64,000 nt of DNA from Streptomyces puniciscabiei (lineage in GTDB: Bacteria > Actinomycetota > Actinomycetes > Streptomycetales > Streptomycetaceae), in contig NZ_VFNX01000006.1 of the NCBI RefSeq assembly GCF_006715785.1, positions 62,001 through 126,000 on the forward strand, written 5' to 3'. How positions within the stretch are numbered: the stretch's first letter is position 1; each line of letters starts with the position of its first letter. The notes below the pieces were generated by a model. The model saw only the letters and a program-made list of their open reading frames with translations, ran no database searches and had not been told where the DNA came from. This document shows positions 1,264 to 9,933 of the stretch, piece by piece. A program made the translations under genes and the position numbers.

Positions 1264-2718
1264 TCAGCGCGTACTGGTCAGGGACGACCCGTCGTTCGCC
1301 GAACCCGCTCCGGACTGGTCGCTTCCGCTGCCGGACGGGTCCGCGGAGCCGGCACCGGCACCGGCACCGGCACCGGACTGGTCACCCGCCGAGGCCGAGG
1401 GGTCGGCCGAGCCGCCGATCTGGTCGCCGCCCGCGCCGGACTGGTCCCCCGCCGAGGCCGACGGGGCGGCCGAACCGGACTGGTCACCCGCGCCGGACTG
1501 GTCACCGGCCGAGGCCGACGGGGCGGCGGAACCCGACTGGTCGCCCGCGCCGTTGCCCGCGTTGCCGCCGTTGCCGAGGGTCGCGCCGGTGGCCTGCAGG
1601 GCGGCGGTGACCGGCTGGAAGAAGGTCTCGCCGCCGTTGGTGCAGTCGCCGCTGCCGCCGGAGGTGAGGCCGACGGCGCCGCCGTCCTGGGTGAACAGGG
1701 AGCCGCCGCTGTCCCCGGGCTCGGCGCAGACGTTGGTCTGGATCAGGCCGTTGACGGTGTCGGTGCCGCCCGGGACGGTCTCGCTCGCGAAGTTCACGGT
1801 GGCGTCGAGGCCGGTGACCTGGCCGTTGTGCAGGCCGGTGGTGGAGCCCATGCGGAACACGGTCTCGCCGACGGTGGCGTCGGCGGCCTGGGTGATCTGG
1901 ACGGTCTGGCCGTTGCCGGTGTTGACCTCGCTCGGCGCCTGCGTGCTCGTGTCGTTGTACTTGACGAGCGAGAAGTCGTTGCCGGGGAACTTGGCCTGGT
2001 CCACGGTGGCGACGGGCTGGCCGTTCTGCGAGTCGGACCAGTCCTTGGCGGCGACTCCGCAGTGACCGGCCGTCAGGAAGGCGGGGCTGCCGTCGGCGGC
2101 GGTGACGTTGAAGCCGAGGGAGCAGCGGACGCCGCCCTGCTGGGTCTGGGCGAAGATGGCGTCCCCGCCCGAGACGAAGGTCTTGAAGGTGCCGGCGGAC
2201 TTCTTCAGTGTCGCCATGCCGGAGCCGAGGCTCTGCACGGTCGACTGCAGTCTGTTCCACTTGGCGCCGGTGACGGTGGAGTCGGCGGTGACGAGGACCT
2301 TGTCGGTGCGCGGGTCCACGGCCCAGGAGGTGCCGGGGATGGTGGCCTTGGTCCTGAGGGTCGCGGCGGCGGCCTTGAGGTCGCTCGTGCTGTTCTTCAC
2401 CTGGCGCGCGACCGCGCCCGCCTTCTTCACCTGCGCGATGACGTTGTTGTCGCCGCTGACCACGTTGACGACGAGTTGCTGCTTGCCGCTGTCGAAGTAC
2501 GACCCGGCGACGGCGTCACCGAGGACCTTCTGCAGCTGGGCGGCGAGATCCGAGGCCTGCGTGGCCTTCAGCGTCCTCGCCGTGCCGGTGGCAACGGATG
2601 CCTGGTTCTTGTCCTGCGAGGCCATGGCGTTGGGCAGCAGAATGGCCGCCGCTCCGAGCGCCGCGACACCGCCCACCGCTATCGCCGCCTTGCGCTTGGG
2701 CATTCGCTTGTGACTCAA
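1264..2718 (-). CDS. Secreted streptogrisin-type S1 serine protease with repetitive C-terminal tail
   Basis: A 484-aa secreted protease of the alpha-lytic/streptogrisin family. It has an N-terminal signal (KRK then a hydrophobic stretch, residues 8-33) and a prodomain (about 36-180). The mature part probably starts near V182, in FVSGGDAIF. The catalytic triad is H219 (TAGHC), D248 (NDFSLV) and S337 (GDSGGSL). Residues about 385-484 are a Gly/Ser/Asp/Gln tail with repeated GDQSG units, unlike the short classical streptogrisins. The start chosen is TTG at 2718, 9 nt after a GGAGG site; ATG at 2703 is the alternative. Substrate specificity is not predictable here. Confidence 0.92.
   Translation of the reverse strand: MSHKRMPKRKAAIAVGGVAALGAAAILLPNAMASQDKNQASVATGTARTLKATQASDLAAQLQKVLGDAVAGSYFDSGKQQLVVNVVSGDNNVIAQVKKAGAVARQVKNSTSDLKAAAATLRTKATIPGTSWAVDPRTDKVLVTADSTVTGAKWNRLQSTVQSLGSGMATLKKSAGTFKTFVSGGDAIFAQTQQGGVRCSLGFNVTAADGSPAFLTAGHCGVAAKDWSDSQNGQPVATVDQAKFPGNDFSLVKYNDTSTQAPSEVNTGNGQTVQITQAADATVGETVFRMGSTTGLHNGQVTGLDATVNFASETVPGGTDTVNGLIQTNVCAEPGDSGGSLFTQDGGAVGLTSGGSGDCTNGGETFFQPVTAALQATGATLGNGGNAGNGAGDQSGSAAPSASAGDQSGAGDQSGSAAPSASAGDQSGAGGDQIGGSADPSASAGDQSGAGAGAGAGSADPSGSGSDQSGAGSANDGSSLTSTR
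1275..1545 (-). repeat. Coding minisatellite in the protease tail
   Basis: Degenerate tandem repeats encode alternating GDQSGA and SAAPSASA / SADPSASA segments at the C-terminus of the protease. A CCGGCA hexamer run (near 1351-1378) encodes the GAGAG stretch. Such arrays change length easily between strains. Confidence 0.75.
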
Positions 2719-3315: not shown

Positions 3316-3537
3316 CACGTTCCGCTACCGATCAGTAACGGTCCGTTCCTCACACGATCCGGAATCCCGGCTTCAGGAAATCTACACATTGAATACTCAA
3401 CGAAGTCACTGAGAGCCGGGGATCTGCACATCCGCGCGCCCCTCGTCGCTCCATTGGGGCGGAGTGCCGGATTCGCGTCCCGGCGGACAAGCCTTCGTGC
3501 GCGACGATGCCGTGCGGCATGTGAAGGAGTGGCCGAC

Positions 3538-3606
3538 ATGTCGTGCGCACGCCTGCACGGACGGTGCCCGTCGCGAGGCAAGTCCCCTGGTGAGAGCCCT
3601 GGTTGA
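3538..3606 (+). CDS. Candidate 22-aa leader peptide (uORF)
   Basis: ATG at 3538 lies 8 nt after GAAGGAG, the best ribosome site in this leader. It opens a 22-codon frame (begins MSCARLHGRCP, two Cys, several Arg) that stops at 3604-3606, five bases before the 3611-3633 stem-loop. This geometry resembles a leader peptide for transcription or translation control. It has no recognisable homologue and may not be expressed. Confidence 0.3.
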   Translation: MSCARLHGRCPSRGKSPGESPG

Positions 3607-3610
3607 TTGG

Positions 3611-3633
3611 AAGCACGCCCCGCCTGCGTGCTT
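3611..3633 (+). promoter_or_regulatory. Stem-loop upstream of the precursor peptide
   Basis: Arms AAGCACGC (3611-3618) and GCGTGCTT (3626-3633) pair perfectly over a 7-nt loop. It could be an attenuator hairpin or a protein operator; the sequence does not decide between these. Confidence 0.5.
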
Positions 3634-3767
3634 TGATCCATCGCACCGCGGGGGTCGCGGCGGGCTCCCGGAGACGGGGGCCCGGCGCCCGCGGTCGCGG
3701 CCGTCCGTCTGTCCCCAGAGGGGGCCGCTCCCCCTTGTGAAATATCCATAGGAAGGGAAGTTCCATC

Positions 3768-3983
3768 ATGAACTCCACCCCCCAGGTCGAGACCGTCGAG
3801 ATCTCGGACGCCGAGCTGGACAGCATCTCCGGCGGTCTGTCCGTGAACACCCTGAACACCGTCACCGGTGCCGTGAACGGCGTTGCCCCGGTCTCCGGCG
3901 CGGTGAACACGGTCGTCGGCACCGTCGAGGGCGTCACCGGCCTGAACGTGCAGCCGGTCACCAACCTGGTCGCCGGTCTCTGA
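3768..3983 (+). CDS. Double-glycine leader precursor peptide (bacteriocin-like, cysteine-free)
   Basis: A 71-aa peptide. Residues 1-23 form a typical acidic leader ending DAELDSISGG, the processing site for C39 peptidases. The 48-residue core begins LSVNTLNT and is made of Val/Thr/Asn/Gly-rich repeats such as TVTGAVNGV, SGAVNTVVG and TVEGVTG. The core has no Cys, Trp, Tyr or Phe and a single charged residue (Glu), so lanthionine or disulfide formation is impossible. The start ATG has the ribosome site GGAAGGG. Genes for an adaptor and two exporters follow directly. Automated tools may call it a type A2 lantipeptide, but the core argues against that. Its activity is unknown. Confidence 0.85.
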   Translation: MNSTPQVETVEISDAELDSISGGLSVNTLNTVTGAVNGVAPVSGAVNTVVGTVEGVTGLNVQPVTNLVAGL

Positions 3984-4006
3984 TCGCACCTCGTTGCATC
4001 GGAAGT

Positions 4007-4030
4007 CCCGGAGCCGTCCTCGGCTCCGGG
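4007..4030 (+). terminator. Attenuating hairpin between precursor and exporter genes
   Basis: A perfect 10-bp stem (CCCGGAGCCG / CGGCTCCGGG) with a TCCT loop lies 24 nt after the precursor stop. Such partial terminators are common after RiPP precursor genes, where they keep precursor mRNA more abundant than exporter mRNA. That role is inferred. Confidence 0.65.
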
Positions 4031-4083
4031 GCTCTCGGATGTCCTGAAACACCAGCGTCTCTCCCACAGGTGAGGGAAGTTCC

Positions 4084-4890
4084 GTGCAGTTCCGCCAACA
4101 GGCCCTCGCCAAGCTCCAGTCGCCCGAAGAGCTGGACCTCCCGGTGCGGCTGGCCCGCCCCCAGGGCTGGCTCGCCCTGGGCGTCACCGTCGTCGTCATG
4201 GCGGTCGCGTCCGTCTGGGCGGTGACCGGTTCGGTCGCCTCCACCGTGAGCGCACCGGCCATCCTCACGCACGGGCAGGGCAGTTATCTGCTGCAGAGCC
4301 CGGTGTCCGGCCAGGTCACGGCCGTCCTCGCCCGGCAGGGCGAGCGGCTGCCCGCGAACGCCCCGGTCCTCAGGGTCCGGACGAGTCAGGGCGACTCGGT
4401 GGTCCGCACGGTCGCCGCGGGCCGGGTCACCACGCTCGCCGCCACCATCGGGCAGATCATCCAGACCGGCACCAATGTCGCCGCCGTGGAGAAGGTGGCC
4501 CACCCCTCCGACCCGCTGTACGCGACCGTCTACGTGCCCGCCCAGAACGCGGCCGCCATCCCCGCCCACGCCTCGGTCGACCTCACCGTGTCCTCGGTGC
4601 CGGCGCAGACCTACGGCGTGCTGCGCGGCGAGGTGAAGTCGGTGGACCGCACCGCGCAGTCCGCCCAGTCGATCTCCGCGTTCCTCGGCGACAGCCAGCT
4701 CGGGCAGCAGTTCAGCGACAAGGGCCGCCCGGTGGCCGTGCTGGTCGCACTCGACAGGTCGGCGAGCACGAAGAGCGGTTACCGGTGGTCCACCACCGAC
4801 GGACCGCCGTTCCGGCTCGACTCCATGACGCTCGCCTCCGGTTCCATCAAGCTGGCCGACCAGCACCCCGTCGATTGGCTGCTGCCGTGA
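4084..4890 (+). CDS. HlyD-family adaptor of the NHLM-type peptide export system
   Basis: A 268-aa protein with a cytosolic N-terminus, one membrane segment (about residues 29-51, beginning WLALGVTVVVMAV) and an extracytoplasmic part. The latter carries a biotinyl-lipoyl-like hairpin (SPVSGQVTAVLARQGERLP). Members connect ABC exporters to the outside and act with them on secreted peptides. The GTG start follows GAGGGAAG. The same GGGAAGTTCC string precedes the precursor start. The stop overlaps the next gene's start by 4 bp, so translation is probably coupled. Confidence 0.82.
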   Translation: MQFRQQALAKLQSPEELDLPVRLARPQGWLALGVTVVVMAVASVWAVTGSVASTVSAPAILTHGQGSYLLQSPVSGQVTAVLARQGERLPANAPVLRVRTSQGDSVVRTVAAGRVTTLAATIGQIIQTGTNVAAVEKVAHPSDPLYATVYVPAQNAAAIPAHASVDLTVSSVPAQTYGVLRGEVKSVDRTAQSAQSISAFLGDSQLGQQFSDKGRPVAVLVALDRSASTKSGYRWSTTDGPPFRLDSMTLASGSIKLADQHPVDWLLP

Positions 4891-7106
4891 CCACCACGCA
4901 GGAACGCGGCCGCAGACGCGCCGCCCCGGCCAAGCGGCCGGTCCCCAAGCCCCGTGGCGGCACGGTCCGTACGCCCACCGTGCTCCAGATGGAGGCCGTC
5001 GAGTGCGGCGCCGCCTCCCTGGCGATGGTCCTCGCGCACTACGGCCGGCACGTCCCGCTGGAGGAGCTGCGGATCGCCTGCGGTGTCTCCCGCGACGGCT
5101 CGCGCGCCTCCAACCTGCTGAAGGCGGCGCGTAGTTACGGCCTGACGGCCAAGGGCATGCAGATGGACCTGGCCGCCCTCGCCGGAGTGCAGGCACCGGC
5201 CATCCTGTTCTGGGAGTTCAACCACTACGTCGTCTTCGACGGCATGGGCCGCCGCTTCGGCCGCCGGGGCGTGTACATCAACGACCCCGCCAAGGGCCGC
5301 CGTTTCGTGCCCATGGAGGAGTTCGACGGCAGCTTCACCGGTGTGGTGCTGGTGCTGGAGCCGGGCGACGGCTTCACCCGGGGCGGGCGCCGGCCCGGTG
5401 TGCTCGGCGCGATGCCGGCCCGGCTGCGCGGCACCGCCGGCACCCTGCCCGCCGCCGTCCTCGCCAGCCTGCTGCTGGTCGCGGTCGGTGCCGCCGTACC
5501 CGCGCTCAGCCGCACCTACATCGACACGTTCCTCATCGGCGGCCGGACCTCCCTGCTGGGCGTGCTGTTCGCCTCGATGGGCACCTGTGTCCTGCTCACC
5601 CTGGTGCTGACCTGGCTGCAGCAGGCCAACCTGCTGCACGGCCGGATCATCTCCTCCACCCTCTCCAGCGCCCGCTTCCTGCGCCATCTGCTGCGGCTGC
5701 CGGTGACCTTCTTCGCCCAGCGCTCCCCCGCCGACCTGGTGCAGCGGCTGCAGTCCAACGACCAGGTCGCCGAGACCCTGGCCCGCGACCTGGCAGCGGC
5801 CGGCGTGGACGCGATCGTCGTCGTCCTGTACGCCGTCCTGCTCTACACCTACGACCCGCAGCTGACCTTCGTCGGCATCGGCGTGGCCCTGCTCAACGTG
5901 GTCGCCATGCGGCTGGTCGTACGGCTGCGCGCGACCCGGACGGCGAAGCTGCGCGCGGACACGGCACGGCTGACGAACACGTCGTACACCGGTCTTCAGC
6001 TGATCGAGACGATGAAGGCGACCGGCGGCGAGGACGGCTACTTCCGCAAGTGGGCCGGGCAGCACGCCACCACCCTGGAGGAGCAGCAGCGGCTCGGGGT
6101 GCCCAGCGCATGGCTGGGCGTGGTCGCCCCCACCCTGGCCACCTTCAACAGCGCGCTGATCCTGTGGATCGGCGGCCTGCGCGCGGTCGAGGGGCACATC
6201 TCGGTGGGTCTGCTGGTCGCCTTCCAGGCACTGGTCACCCGGTTCACCGCTCCCCTCACCAGGCTCAACGGCGTGGCGGGCCGCATCCAGGACTTCGCCG
6301 CCGACGTGGCACGGCTGAAGGACGTGGAGAACTTCCAGGCCGACCCGCTCTACGCCCGCCCCGGCGGCGCCGACTCCACGCGCCGGCTGCACGGGCACGT
6401 CGAGCTGGAGAACGTCACCTTCGGCTACAGCCCGCTGGACAAGCCACTGCTGAGCGGCTTCGACCTGACCGTGGGCCCGGGCCAGCAGGTGGCGCTGGTC
6501 GGCGGCTCCGGCAGCGGCAAGTCCACGGTGTCCCGGCTCATCTCCGGCCTCTACGCACCCTGGGACGGCGTGATCCGCATCGACGGCCGTCGTCTGGAGG
6601 ACATCCCCCGCGGCGCGCTCGCCGCCTCCGTCTCCTTCGTCGACCAGGACGTGTTCCTCTTCGAGGGCTCGGTGCGCGACAACGTCGCCCTGTGGGACCC
6701 GTCCATCCCGGACGAGGCCGTGGTGGAGGCGCTGAAGGACGCGGCCCTGTACGACGTGGTGATGCGCCGGCCCGGCGGCATCCACAGCAGGGTCGAGCAG
6801 GACGGCCACAACTTCTCCGGCGGCCAGCGGCAACGGCTCGAGATCGCCCGGGCCCTGGTCCGCAGGCCGAGCATCCTCGTCCTGGACGAGGTGACCAGCG
6901 CGCTGGACGCCGAGACCGAGCTGACCGTGATGGACAACCTGCGCCGGCGCGGCTGCGCCTGCGTGGTGATCGCGCACCGGCTGAGCACGGTCCGCGACAG
7001 CGACGAGATCGTCGTGCTCCAGCACGGCACGGTCGTCGAGCGCGGGCGGCACGAGGAGCTGGTGGCGCGCGGCGGCGCGTACGCCGCGCTGGTCAGGGAG
7101 CGATGA
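4887..7106 (+). CDS. C39 peptidase-containing ABC exporter (NHLM ABC1 type)
   Basis: A 739-aa polypeptide with three parts. The N-terminal C39 bacteriocin-processing peptidase has Cys40 in VECGAAS, His113 in FNHYVVF and Asp133 in YINDPAKG. A six-helix membrane domain spans about residues 185-460. The ABC ATPase has Walker A GGSGSGKST at 539-547, signature FSGGQ at 643-647, Walker B ILVLDE at 663-668 and the H-loop His at 697. All catalytic residues are present. It should cleave after the GG of the upstream precursor and export the core. The GTG start overlaps the adaptor stop in GTGA. Confidence 0.95.
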   Translation: MTTTQERGRRRAAPAKRPVPKPRGGTVRTPTVLQMEAVECGAASLAMVLAHYGRHVPLEELRIACGVSRDGSRASNLLKAARSYGLTAKGMQMDLAALAGVQAPAILFWEFNHYVVFDGMGRRFGRRGVYINDPAKGRRFVPMEEFDGSFTGVVLVLEPGDGFTRGGRRPGVLGAMPARLRGTAGTLPAAVLASLLLVAVGAAVPALSRTYIDTFLIGGRTSLLGVLFASMGTCVLLTLVLTWLQQANLLHGRIISSTLSSARFLRHLLRLPVTFFAQRSPADLVQRLQSNDQVAETLARDLAAAGVDAIVVVLYAVLLYTYDPQLTFVGIGVALLNVVAMRLVVRLRATRTAKLRADTARLTNTSYTGLQLIETMKATGGEDGYFRKWAGQHATTLEEQQRLGVPSAWLGVVAPTLATFNSALILWIGGLRAVEGHISVGLLVAFQALVTRFTAPLTRLNGVAGRIQDFAADVARLKDVENFQADPLYARPGGADSTRRLHGHVELENVTFGYSPLDKPLLSGFDLTVGPGQQVALVGGSGSGKSTVSRLISGLYAPWDGVIRIDGRRLEDIPRGALAASVSFVDQDVFLFEGSVRDNVALWDPSIPDEAVVEALKDAALYDVVMRRPGGIHSRVEQDGHNFSGGQRQRLEIARALVRRPSILVLDEVTSALDAETELTVMDNLRRRGCACVVIAHRLSTVRDSDEIVVLQHGTVVERGRHEELVARGGAYAALVRER

Positions 7107-7107
7107 G

Positions 7108-9933
7108 ATGACGACCGTTCAGGAGGGATACGAAGGCGACCTCGTGCTCGGCGCGCTGGGGTCCATGGGCACCCGCGTCGACTGCGCCGGCTTCAACCGC
7201 CTCGACCTCGAAGGCCCGCAGGTGCTGTGGCTGGTCGCGGCCGGGGCCCTGGACCTGTTCGCGGTGGACGCGGCCCAGCAGGGCCACTGGCACCACCTGG
7301 GCCGGCTGGAGCCGGGCGCGCTGCTGCTCGGCCCGGTCGCGGGGCCCCAGCACACCCTGGTGGCCCGCCCGGTCCGGGACTGCGTGGTGCACCGGATCAA
7401 CCTGCGCGAGCTGTACCAGCCGGCGAACACCCAGACCTGGTCGTACGACGAGTACGGCAACCCCCAGTACGTGCCGCCCGCCACCAGCCCACTGGAGTAC
7501 GCGGTCGCGCTCGGCGTCGGCCGCGGCCTGTCCGTCCTCTTCCAGGCGCCGATGGCCGAGGAACGGGCCGCCACGCCCACCGACGACGACGTGTTCTGGA
7601 TGCAGGTGCCGCCGGGCAGCGTCCAGTACGGATCCCTGTACGGCGCCGAGGCCGCCGCCGACCTGCTGATGGACCCCGCGCTGTGGCAGTCCATGGTCGA
7701 CCAGCAGTACCGGCTGCTGACCGCGCTGGACCGGTGGATCGAGCAGCTGGAGCGCACCCACGAGACCCGCACGGCCGCCGGGATCAAGGCCGGCGAGGCG
7801 GTGCGCGCCCAGGCCGACCAGACCCTGCTGGCCTCCATCGGCAAGCGCTCGGCCCGCCGGACGACGGCCGCCGACGCCGACGCCGGTTACGCCGCGTGCA
7901 AGCTGGTCGCCGAGGCGGCCGGGATCAAGCTCGCCGAGCCCGCCCAGAGCGGCACCGAGAGCGAACGCCTCGACCCGGTCGAACGGGTGGCGCTCGCCTC
8001 CCGGGTGCGCACCCGGGCCGTACGGCTGCAGGGGCGCTGGTGGCGGGAGAACGTGGGCCCGCTGGTCGGGCACCGGGCGCTGTCCGGGGCGCCGGTCGCG
8101 CTGCTCTGGCGGCGCGGCGGGTACGTGGCCGTCCACCCCGGCACCGGTCGTGAGACGCCGATCGAGAAGGCGAACGCGGAGGAGTTCGAGCCGCGCGCGG
8201 TGATGTTCTACCGGCCGCTGCCCGACAAGGCGCTGACGCCGTTCGGTCTGCTGCGGTTCAGCCTCCAGGGCACCCGCGGCGATCTGCTCGGGCTGATCCT
8301 GGCGGGCCTGGTGACGGTGGCGATCGGCGCGCTGGTGCCGGTGGCGACCGGCAAGGTGCTCGGCGAGTACGTGCCGAGGGCACAGACGGGCCTGATCGTC
8401 CAGGTGTGCCTGGCGGTGATGGTGAGCGGGGTGGTCGCGGCGGCGTTCACGCTGCTGGAGAACCTGTCCATCCTGCGTCTGGAGGGCCGGATCGAGTCGG
8501 CGCTCCAGCCGGCCGTCTGGGACCGGCTGCTGCGCCTGCCCACCCGGTTCTTCACCCAGCGCTCCACCGGTGAGCTCGCCAGCGCGGCGCTGGGCATCAG
8601 CGCGATCCGCCGGCTGCTGGCGGGCGTCGGCCCGGTGGTCGCGCAGTCGGTGACCGTCGGCGCGATGAACCTGGGCCTGCTGTTCTGGTACAGCCCGTCG
8701 ATGGCCATGGCCGCGCTCGGCATGCTCGTCGTCATCGCGGCCGTGTTCCTGGGACTCGGGCTGTGGCAGGTGCGCTGGCAGCGGAAGCTGACGGTGCTCG
8801 GCAACAAGCTGAACAACCAGGCGTTCCAGACCCTGCGCGGCCTGCCCAAGCTGCGGGTGGCGGCGGCCGAGAACTACGCGTACGCGGCCTGGGCACGGGA
8901 GTTCGCGCGCAGCCGGGAGCTGCAGCAGAAGGTCGGCCGGATCAAGAACCTCACCACGGTGCTCGGCGGGATCTATCTGCCGGTGTGCACGCTGCTGATG
9001 TTCATGCTGCTGGCGGGCCCGGCGCGGGGCGCGATGTCGGCGGCGGACTTCCTCACCTTCAACACCTCGGTGACGATGGTGCTGACCTCGGTCACCCAGC
9101 TGACCGGCTCCTTCGTCTCGGCGGTGGCGGCGCTGCCGCTGTTCGAGGAGATCAAGCCGGTCTTCGAGGCGACCCCCGAGGTGCGCACGGCGAGCACCCG
9201 GCCGGGCCCGCTGTCCGGCGCGATCGAGGCCCGCCGGCTGTCCTTCCGGTACGCCGACGACGGCCCGCTCGTCCTGGACGACGTGTCCTTCGCCGTCCGC
9301 CCGGGCGAGTTCGTGGCGGTCGTCGGCCCGAGCGGCTGCGGCAAGTCCACCCTGCTCCGCCTCCTCATCGGCTTCGACAAGCCGGTCACCGGCAGTGTCC
9401 TGTACGACGGCCAGGACCTCGCGGCGCTCGACCAGTCGGCCGTACGCCGCCAGTGCGGGGTGGTGCTCCAGCACGCGCAGCCGTTCACCGGCTCCATCCT
9501 GGACGTCATCTGCGGCACCGAGCCGTACACGCCGGAGGAGGCGATGACGGCGGCCGAGATGGCGGGGCTCGCGGAGGACATCAAGCGGATGCCGATGGGA
9601 CTGCACACGATCGTCGGCGGCAACGGCGCGATCTCCGGCGGTCAGCGGCAGCGGCTGATGATCGCGCAGGCTCTGATCCGGCGCCCCCGCATCCTGTTCT
9701 TCGACGAGGCCACCAGCGCCCTGGACAACGACACCCAGCGCATCGTCATCGACAGCACGCGCAAGCTGAACGCCACCCGCGTCGTCATCGCGCACCGGCT
9801 GTCGACGGTCCTGGACGCCGACCGGGTGATCGTGATGGAGGACGGCAAGGTCGTCCAGCAGGGGGCACCGGCGCAGCTGCTCGCCGACACCACGGGCCGC
9901 CTGCACGAGCTGGTGCGCCGGCAGCTGACGTAG
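7108..9933 (+). CDS. Second NHLM-type ABC exporter (ABC2), no peptidase domain
   Basis: A 941-aa protein starting one base after the previous stop. The first about 370 residues are a large cytosolic region, with a cyclic-nucleotide-binding-like fold near the start (LDLFAVDAAQQGHW) and a charged helical part. This layout is characteristic of the NHLM ABC2 family. Then come six membrane helices (about 385-660) and an ATPase with Walker A GPSGCGKST (about 740), ISGGQRQRL and Walker B ILFFDEATSALD. With the C39 exporter it probably forms a heterodimer. The double-transporter pattern defines this RiPP export class. Confidence 0.92.
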   Translation: MTTVQEGYEGDLVLGALGSMGTRVDCAGFNRLDLEGPQVLWLVAAGALDLFAVDAAQQGHWHHLGRLEPGALLLGPVAGPQHTLVARPVRDCVVHRINLRELYQPANTQTWSYDEYGNPQYVPPATSPLEYAVALGVGRGLSVLFQAPMAEERAATPTDDDVFWMQVPPGSVQYGSLYGAEAAADLLMDPALWQSMVDQQYRLLTALDRWIEQLERTHETRTAAGIKAGEAVRAQADQTLLASIGKRSARRTTAADADAGYAACKLVAEAAGIKLAEPAQSGTESERLDPVERVALASRVRTRAVRLQGRWWRENVGPLVGHRALSGAPVALLWRRGGYVAVHPGTGRETPIEKANAEEFEPRAVMFYRPLPDKALTPFGLLRFSLQGTRGDLLGLILAGLVTVAIGALVPVATGKVLGEYVPRAQTGLIVQVCLAVMVSGVVAAAFTLLENLSILRLEGRIESALQPAVWDRLLRLPTRFFTQRSTGELASAALGISAIRRLLAGVGPVVAQSVTVGAMNLGLLFWYSPSMAMAALGMLVVIAAVFLGLGLWQVRWQRKLTVLGNKLNNQAFQTLRGLPKLRVAAAENYAYAAWAREFARSRELQQKVGRIKNLTTVLGGIYLPVCTLLMFMLLAGPARGAMSAADFLTFNTSVTMVLTSVTQLTGSFVSAVAALPLFEEIKPVFEATPEVRTASTRPGPLSGAIEARRLSFRYADDGPLVLDDVSFAVRPGEFVAVVGPSGCGKSTLLRLLIGFDKPVTGSVLYDGQDLAALDQSAVRRQCGVVLQHAQPFTGSILDVICGTEPYTPEEAMTAAEMAGLAEDIKRMPMGLHTIVGGNGAISGGQRQRLMIAQALIRRPRILFFDEATSALDNDTQRIVIDSTRKLNATRVVIAHRLSTVLDADRVIVMEDGKVVQQGAPAQLLADTTGRLHELVRRQLT

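Follow-up and report, generated by a model that had tools for sequence, protein, structure and literature searches.

What is a peptide without cysteine doing next to an NHLM-type double exporter, and is it the only substrate of that exporter? The question is raised by a four-gene locus (3768-9933) in a 64,000-nucleotide stretch of the Streptomyces puniciscabiei genome (NZ_VFNX01000006.1, positions 62,001 to 126,000; hereafter the window), which encodes a double-glycine precursor, an HlyD-type accessory protein and two ABC proteins, ABC1 and ABC2. In C39 exporters, the C39 domain cuts after the GG motif and the ABC part exports the product. We observed that this precursor shares its leader and promoter region with precursors encoded elsewhere, that the cores that follow are unrelated, and that leader and exporter co-occur across the genus. 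We consider it probable, if well short of certain, that this locus is the hub of a secretion regulon in which one exporter handles many unmodified double-glycine peptides, and that the core encoded here, called A below, is extracellular.

A common leader and a single exporter

The initial annotation had described a leader ending in GG and two exporters with all their catalytic motifs, and both points hold. The 23-residue leader ends in ISGG and the four genes are real; ABC1 retains the Cys, His and Asp motifs of the C39 peptidase, and both ABC proteins have intact Walker A, SGGQ, Walker B and AHR motifs. ABC1 and ABC2 score above the NCBIfam cut-offs for NHLM export systems, and HlyD falls 2.6 bits below its own (Table 1). 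ABC1 residues 32-735 are similar, over the full length, to 4ry2_A, a solved 'ABC-type bacteriocin transporter', and ABC1 is expected to be both leader protease and exporter. It is also the single C39 peptidase match in the source genome (9.1 Mb, nine contigs).

A profile of near relatives of the precursor (A1) matched a second site in this genome, at C1:3457136, over the leader portion only. This second precursor consists of MNAAHQIQTLEISDAELDTVSGG followed by a 46-residue core unrelated to that of the window. No exporter was recognised across the surrounding 15 kb, and the neighbours scanned with Pfam encode an AraC regulator, a carboxymuconolactone decarboxylase and an MFS transporter. The two precursor genes are 75% identical over 249 bp, which include the leader and approximately 170 bp 5' of the gene, and the similarity ends at the core, an arrangement suggestive of promoter-leader duplication with a core swap. 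The window exporter thus has at least two candidate substrates, encoded on different contigs, and its initial description as dedicated to a single isolated peptide is wrong. With one C39 peptidase and one leader type in the genome, it is simplest to suppose that both precursors leave through the same machine.

The association extends to the genus. A leader-only profile (A2, 37 rows) was run on 295 genomes of the genus with a search prefilter that may miss copies, and it detected 341 leader copies in 218 genomes: one copy in 118, two in 81, three in 16, four in 2 and five in 1, which makes 100 genomes with two to five. ABC1 is above the cut-off in 218 of the 295 genomes as well, including 214 of the 218 with the leader; the leader occurs in 4 of the 77 genomes without such an ABC1 (Fisher p 6.6e-59, a value that overstates independence because the genomes are related). 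As for these four, in three (G119, G180, G279) an ABC1 with 81-93% identity is split into two pieces, through either assembly errors or gene decay, and the fourth, for which the assembly is 79% complete, gave no match. Among the four ABC1 genomes devoid of the leader, one carries its ABC1 (77% identity) at the end of a contig; the ABC1s of the other three (G028, G038, G188) are just 50-58% identical to that of the window and form a second NHLM ABC1 subfamily. At the level of the class, 345 genomes sampled across 126 genera yielded the leader (E up to 1e-4) in 26, each belonging to the window's genus.

We collected 52 distinct scattered precursors, from 20 genomes picked for at least two matches and from a search with precursor 2. 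Their cores form families B, C, D and E and some smaller ones, in addition to family A of the window, all with the same leader type. The sampled cores span 42-56 residues, those of family B (44-51 residues) typically reading L-P-H-A-S-L. In hhalign comparisons among families A-E, the probability is 95-99% for pairs of leaders and 0.1-12% for pairs of cores, C-D (49%) excepted; the leaders are thus homologous and the cores unrelated, the C-D pair aside. A family B profile, leader included, matched 799 proteins; among the best 120 of these, the named ones are nearly all 'hypothetical protein', with four 'Type A2 lantipeptide' and one 'class IIb bacteriocin'. None of the HlyD, ABC1 or ABC2 genes was found within about 1.5 kb of orphan precursors in 53 three-kilobase loci. 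The neighbours there, which were not domain-scanned except for the MFS neighbour of precursor 2, include an MFS-like gene in 9 loci and any other gene in at most 3. In one genome, two leader-bearing precursors are adjacent (L183:1680 and 2319, minus strand), an apparent tandem duplication.

Prochlorosins similarly combine one leader family, hypervariable dispersed cores and one processing machine, a single LanM installing their lanthionines. The Streptomyces set resembles them in its single leader family and in its varied cores scattered over the genome, and differs from them in that 59 of the 68 sampled cores are devoid of Cys. The remaining nine, all of family C, have one Cys each (L143, L144, L175, L177, L179, L181, L185, L187, L189), which would permit extracellular disulfide dimers.

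The upstream DNA of the precursors is also related. Allowing for one mismatch, the 11-base box TGCTTTGATC is present in 38 of 48 precursor upstream regions, for an expectation of 0.14 in shuffled sequences, and in an enlarged set of 69 it precedes 25/26 precursors of family A, 21/22 of B, 8/9 of C and 4/4 of D. A TTGG or CTGG motif lies 16-17 bp 5' of it in 19/26, 20/22, 7/9 and 4/4 of these, respectively. The compared promoters are not independent, but C and D have little other upstream DNA in common with A. Farther upstream, 40 of 66 promoters, each of type A, B or C, have their best match to TGTGAAGGAG at 107-110 bp 5' of the box. The corresponding count for permuted motifs is 9 on average and at most 35, so shared descent explains part of this conservation. 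The sole other exact GTGCTTTGATC in the genome precedes genes for an OmpR-type regulator and a kinase (L225:7145-9432, minus strand). We set this site aside as due to chance or separate, the upstream half-box being absent; compared by eye, the short end of that regulator differs from the primer-encoded Sco5282/5283 sequence given in the accessible part of PMC6629963. A conserved RNA switch in the 5' region was also rejected, the folding z-score being -3.3 for precursor 1 versus -0.2 for precursor 2, and an Rfam search of both precursor regions gave nothing close to a gathering score.

Table 1. Coordinates of the precursor, exporter and promoter features in the window.
Feature	Position	Strand	Remarks
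Upstream element TGTGAAGGAG, 109 bp 5' of the TGCTTTGATC box	3520..3529	+	conserved among promoters
Promoter-like bipartite box TTGATTGG-N17-GTGCTTTGATC	3603..3638	+	upstream of the window precursor
Double-glycine precursor gene (71 codons)	3768-3983	+	leader and core
Leader peptide MNSTPQVETVEISDAELDSISGG, 23 residues, double-glycine	3768..3836	+	leader profile found in 218/295 genus genomes
Core peptide, 48 residues, no Cys, Lys, Arg or aromatic residue (stop codon included)	3837..3983	+	
HlyD-type accessory protein (NHLM_micro_HlyD-like)	4084..4890	+	TIGR03794, E 7e-45, 153.6 bits (cut-off 156.2); PF13437
NHLM ABC1, C39 peptidase/permease/ATPase	4887..7106	+	TIGR03796, 1026.8 bits (cut-off 853.3); PF03412, 7e-35
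NHLM ABC2, permease/ATPase without peptidase domain	7108..9933	+	TIGR03797, 888.1 bits (cut-off 709.4)

The A core and its conserved unit

The A core starts with LSVNTLNT, weighs 4.57 kDa and is also devoid of His. Its single Glu and its repeat-like segments TGAVNGV/SGAVNTV and TVVGTVEG had been noted initially; the single charge is a peculiarity of a few strains, since of the 74 distinct near relatives, counting the window, 68 have two or three acidic residues. The near-relative counts are based on the best 80 of 240 precursor loci, all from Streptomyces. In these loci the precursor has 71 codons without gaps, and the core is 79-93% identical to that of the window. The median ratio of non-synonymous to synonymous substitution rates among 81 genes is 0.16 for the leader (3,014 of 3,240 pairs usable) and 0.55 for the core (3,171 pairs). 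The precursor is a real gene, far from a chance reading frame, and its core is conserved among homologues, so that the lack of such conservation, named initially as a refutation, is not observed.

The conserved unit is limited to the four genes. In 20 distant loci, tblastn found a peptide 54-64% identical to the precursor in 19, and in the last one a peptide with the leader occupies the corresponding position. HlyD is present in all 20, and ABC1 and ABC2 in 19, the remaining contig stopping after HlyD. Any given gene beyond these four is shared by at most 4 of the 20. The initial statement that no modifying gene is present thus stands for the conserved unit and has to be qualified for the surroundings, where a RamC-type cluster lies just upstream, outside the window. 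Closer to the precursor, the window encodes a secreted S1 protease with an alpha-lytic-type prodomain (1264-2700, minus strand). Of the 69 near loci, 65 have such a protease close to the operon and 61 a SpoIIE-type phosphatase. We rejected both as parts of the system and took them as local synteny, since the stretch read has no S1 match in 17 and no SpoIIE match in 19 of the 20 distant loci.

By NCBIfam models, the precursor is not of the NHLP or Nif11 type: neither family is among its seven matches (E up to 0.1), and its leader is just 23 residues long. Cyanobacterial NHLP/N11P systems, as described in the accessible text of PMC3140520, have the same trio of C39 ABC protein, peptidase-free ABC protein and HlyD. 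The locus differs from them by its classic double-glycine leader, its lack of NHLP/Nif11 matches and the absence of a linked LanM or other maturase.

Possible antibacterial, signalling or modified peptides

Could the cores be class II-type bacteriocins directed at competitors, with ABC2 or the exporter providing self-protection? The locus has the double-glycine leader and C39 exporter of unmodified class II bacteriocins; the leader exceeds the TIGR01847 bacteriocin_sig cut-off (18.9 versus 15.7 bits), with a weak Bacteriocin_IIc match besides, and NCBI named one B-type homologue among the matches listed a 'class IIb bacteriocin'. A common leader, promoter element and exporter also characterise streptococcal bacteriocin sets; the Com/Blp regulons, in the part of PMC5295010 available to us, combine unmodified double-glycine peptides, a C39-type exporter that accepts more than one precursor and a conserved promoter element. 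Here, in contrast, the cores are 42-56 residues long, the exporter is an NHLM double ABC system with HlyD, the regulator of the whole Streptomyces set is not proven, and we found no linked immunity gene: no further gene is shared by more than 4 of the 20 distant operon loci or, apart from the MFS-like gene (9/53), by more than 3 of the orphan loci, with the proviso that genes below 70-90 codons would escape. Furthermore, the A core is devoid of basic residues and highly conserved in the best 80 of 240 loci, unlike typical arms-race toxins. We therefore regard a bacteriocin regulon as unlikely.

A signalling function, in which one or more exported cores would serve as pheromones for a kinase such as Sco5282 in an autoinduction loop, would fit the resemblance of export and processing to those of ComC/BlpC (PMC5295010, accessible part) and for the dependence of the S. 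coelicolor locus on a two-component system (PMC6629963, likewise). However, the cores are long for pheromones, no kinase is encoded among the scanned window neighbours, and the A core is nearly invariant across species and would hence not be species-specific. We find this explanation quite improbable.

As for modification, many of the best 120 of the 597 proteins matched by the precursor are named 'type A2 lantipeptide' by NCBI. This label is not supported: Cys is absent from the cores of all 74 distinct near relatives and of 25 diverse A-type members, so no lanthionine is possible, in line with the initial claim that the peptide cannot be a lanthipeptide. There is no linked LanM, the nearest LANC protein in the genome being of the RamC type, about 10 kb upstream, and a core without Cys does not correspond to the RamS-like Ser-Ser-Cys precursor of SapB-type class III morphogens. 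In the literature, the accessible part of PMC3951391 deals with LanM-linked Streptomyces clusters, and that of PMC13047742 with one C39-linked gene termed type A2 lantipeptide from its BLAST name.

The RamC-type protein belongs to a class III lanthipeptide-like cluster (L282:6861-14084, contig C6), which ends about 2 kb before the window start and lies about 6-13 kb upstream of the window precursor. It encodes a RamC-type kinase-cyclase with a LANC domain, a small Cys-containing precursor, MALLDLQTLESEEHTHTGASTASLLSCVSAASVLLCL, and two ABC proteins. This cluster is a neighbour and not a proven part of the system. That its synthetase, or another enzyme acting in trans, would make the window precursor a true lanthipeptide or otherwise modified peptide is highly implausible: further LANC matches exist in the genome (C1:4505706, C2:357400), and of the 69 near loci, 31 have a RamA or RamB homologue in the 9 kb upstream and 5 have RamC there, but the A cores have no Cys, the cluster has its own precursor and transporters, and the 9-kb flank contains neither RamA nor RamB in 38 of the 69 loci (two of them with RamC).

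The S. coelicolor counterpart and a possible role at the hyphal surface

The locus itself is not new. It corresponds to SCO0753-SCO0756 of S. coelicolor ('bacteriocin'/'lantibiotic-like'), in which a Cys-free hydrophobic peptide, HlyD and two ABC proteins occur in the same order. The regulation in that species is taken from PMC6629963 (2019), cited here from its accessible part. In it, SCO0753 shows the strongest overexpression of all genes when Sco5282 is activated (strain Sco5282-D125G; log2 6.3, with 4.25-4.4 for SCO0754-0756; the reference strain of the quantitative reverse-transcription PCR table is the double-null IB97) and is nearly silent in the null mutant. The activated Sco5282 strain has dispersed mycelium. 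The authors noted that SCO0753 has no cysteines and proposed export by the adjacent system and an altered hyphal surface, so that the main idea of the initial annotation was already in print for this locus. Other mentions, in the accessible text of each source, are elevated SCO0753 in an aor1 mutant (PMC5733086), up-regulation of sco0756, called an efflux gene, in a strain without Ppm1 (PMC5882110) and a tabulated value of -0.8 for SCO0756 (PMC6414726). The same part of PMC6629963 deals with one peptide and does not mention scattered precursors with the same leader, a shared promoter or leader-exporter co-occurrence. The new part is thus the non-dedicated exporter with precursors scattered outside the window. 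We found no prior account of this precursor set or leader in the open-access literature, most subscription journals being outside the scope of the search.

We propose that ABC1 recognises the conserved leader and cleaves it after GG, and that ABC1, ABC2 and HlyD would export the cores of neighbouring and orphan precursors alike. The common leader and, in most families, the common promoter box of the orphan precursors suggest that they are co-regulated. The A core, probably a hydrophobic, mildly acidic, amphipathic-helical peptide, would act outside the cell, at the hyphal surface or in mycelial cohesion, and would be switched on together with the exporter; in S. coelicolor, the locus lies downstream of the Sco5282/Sco5283 kinase-regulator pair (PMC6629963, accessible part). 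Helical periodicity, absence of basic residues, strong conservation and the link to dispersed mycelium together favour such a surface or cohesion role. Of the functions suggested initially, a surface role fits the SCO0753 data in the accessible part of PMC6629963, and self-assembly drew no support from AlphaFold2, whose models are low-confidence helices only.

Several points weigh against this proposal. The helical periodicity of the A core (105 degrees over residues 31-60, as strong in 1.2% of shuffles) concerns a stretch chosen by the analyst, and the shuffle figure is uncorrected for that choice; no strand periodicity was detected in the same core. The AlphaFold2 helices, obtained with two alignments, have predicted local distance difference test scores of 60 and 64, too low to support a fold search. 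The correspondence with SCO0753-0756 relies on gene order and description, the sequences not having been compared, and the accessible part of PMC6629963 does not tie the Sco5282 phenotype to SCO0753 itself. At the promoter level, the box is found with at most one mismatch at 31 genomic sites, for 9 with the reversed control, and in none of the eight pooled E, F and G precursors; on the favourable side, both half-boxes at the 16-17 bp spacing occur only at the two precursors, among the 30 of 31 sites read. Families B-D are more polar than A, which makes a common surface role for all families uncertain. Finally, export, cleavage and product mass are predictions from sequence, and we infer in the same way the processing and export in trans, the absence of modification and the extracellular role.

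It is tempting to extend the proposal to a genus-wide system, in which one C39 exporter would serve a co-regulated, expandable set of unmodified peptides, the constant A core shaping the hyphal surface or cohesion and the orphan cores having lineage-specific, specialised extracellular functions; we offer this wider picture tentatively. Secreted peptides of Streptomyces are usually found through their modifying enzymes, and lone enzyme-free peptides annotated as 'hypothetical protein' are easily overlooked. The leader and promoter signature lists such peptides and ties them to one exporter, which a single deletion would remove, and it makes the locus a testable contributor to the dispersed-mycelium phenotype reported upon its induction.

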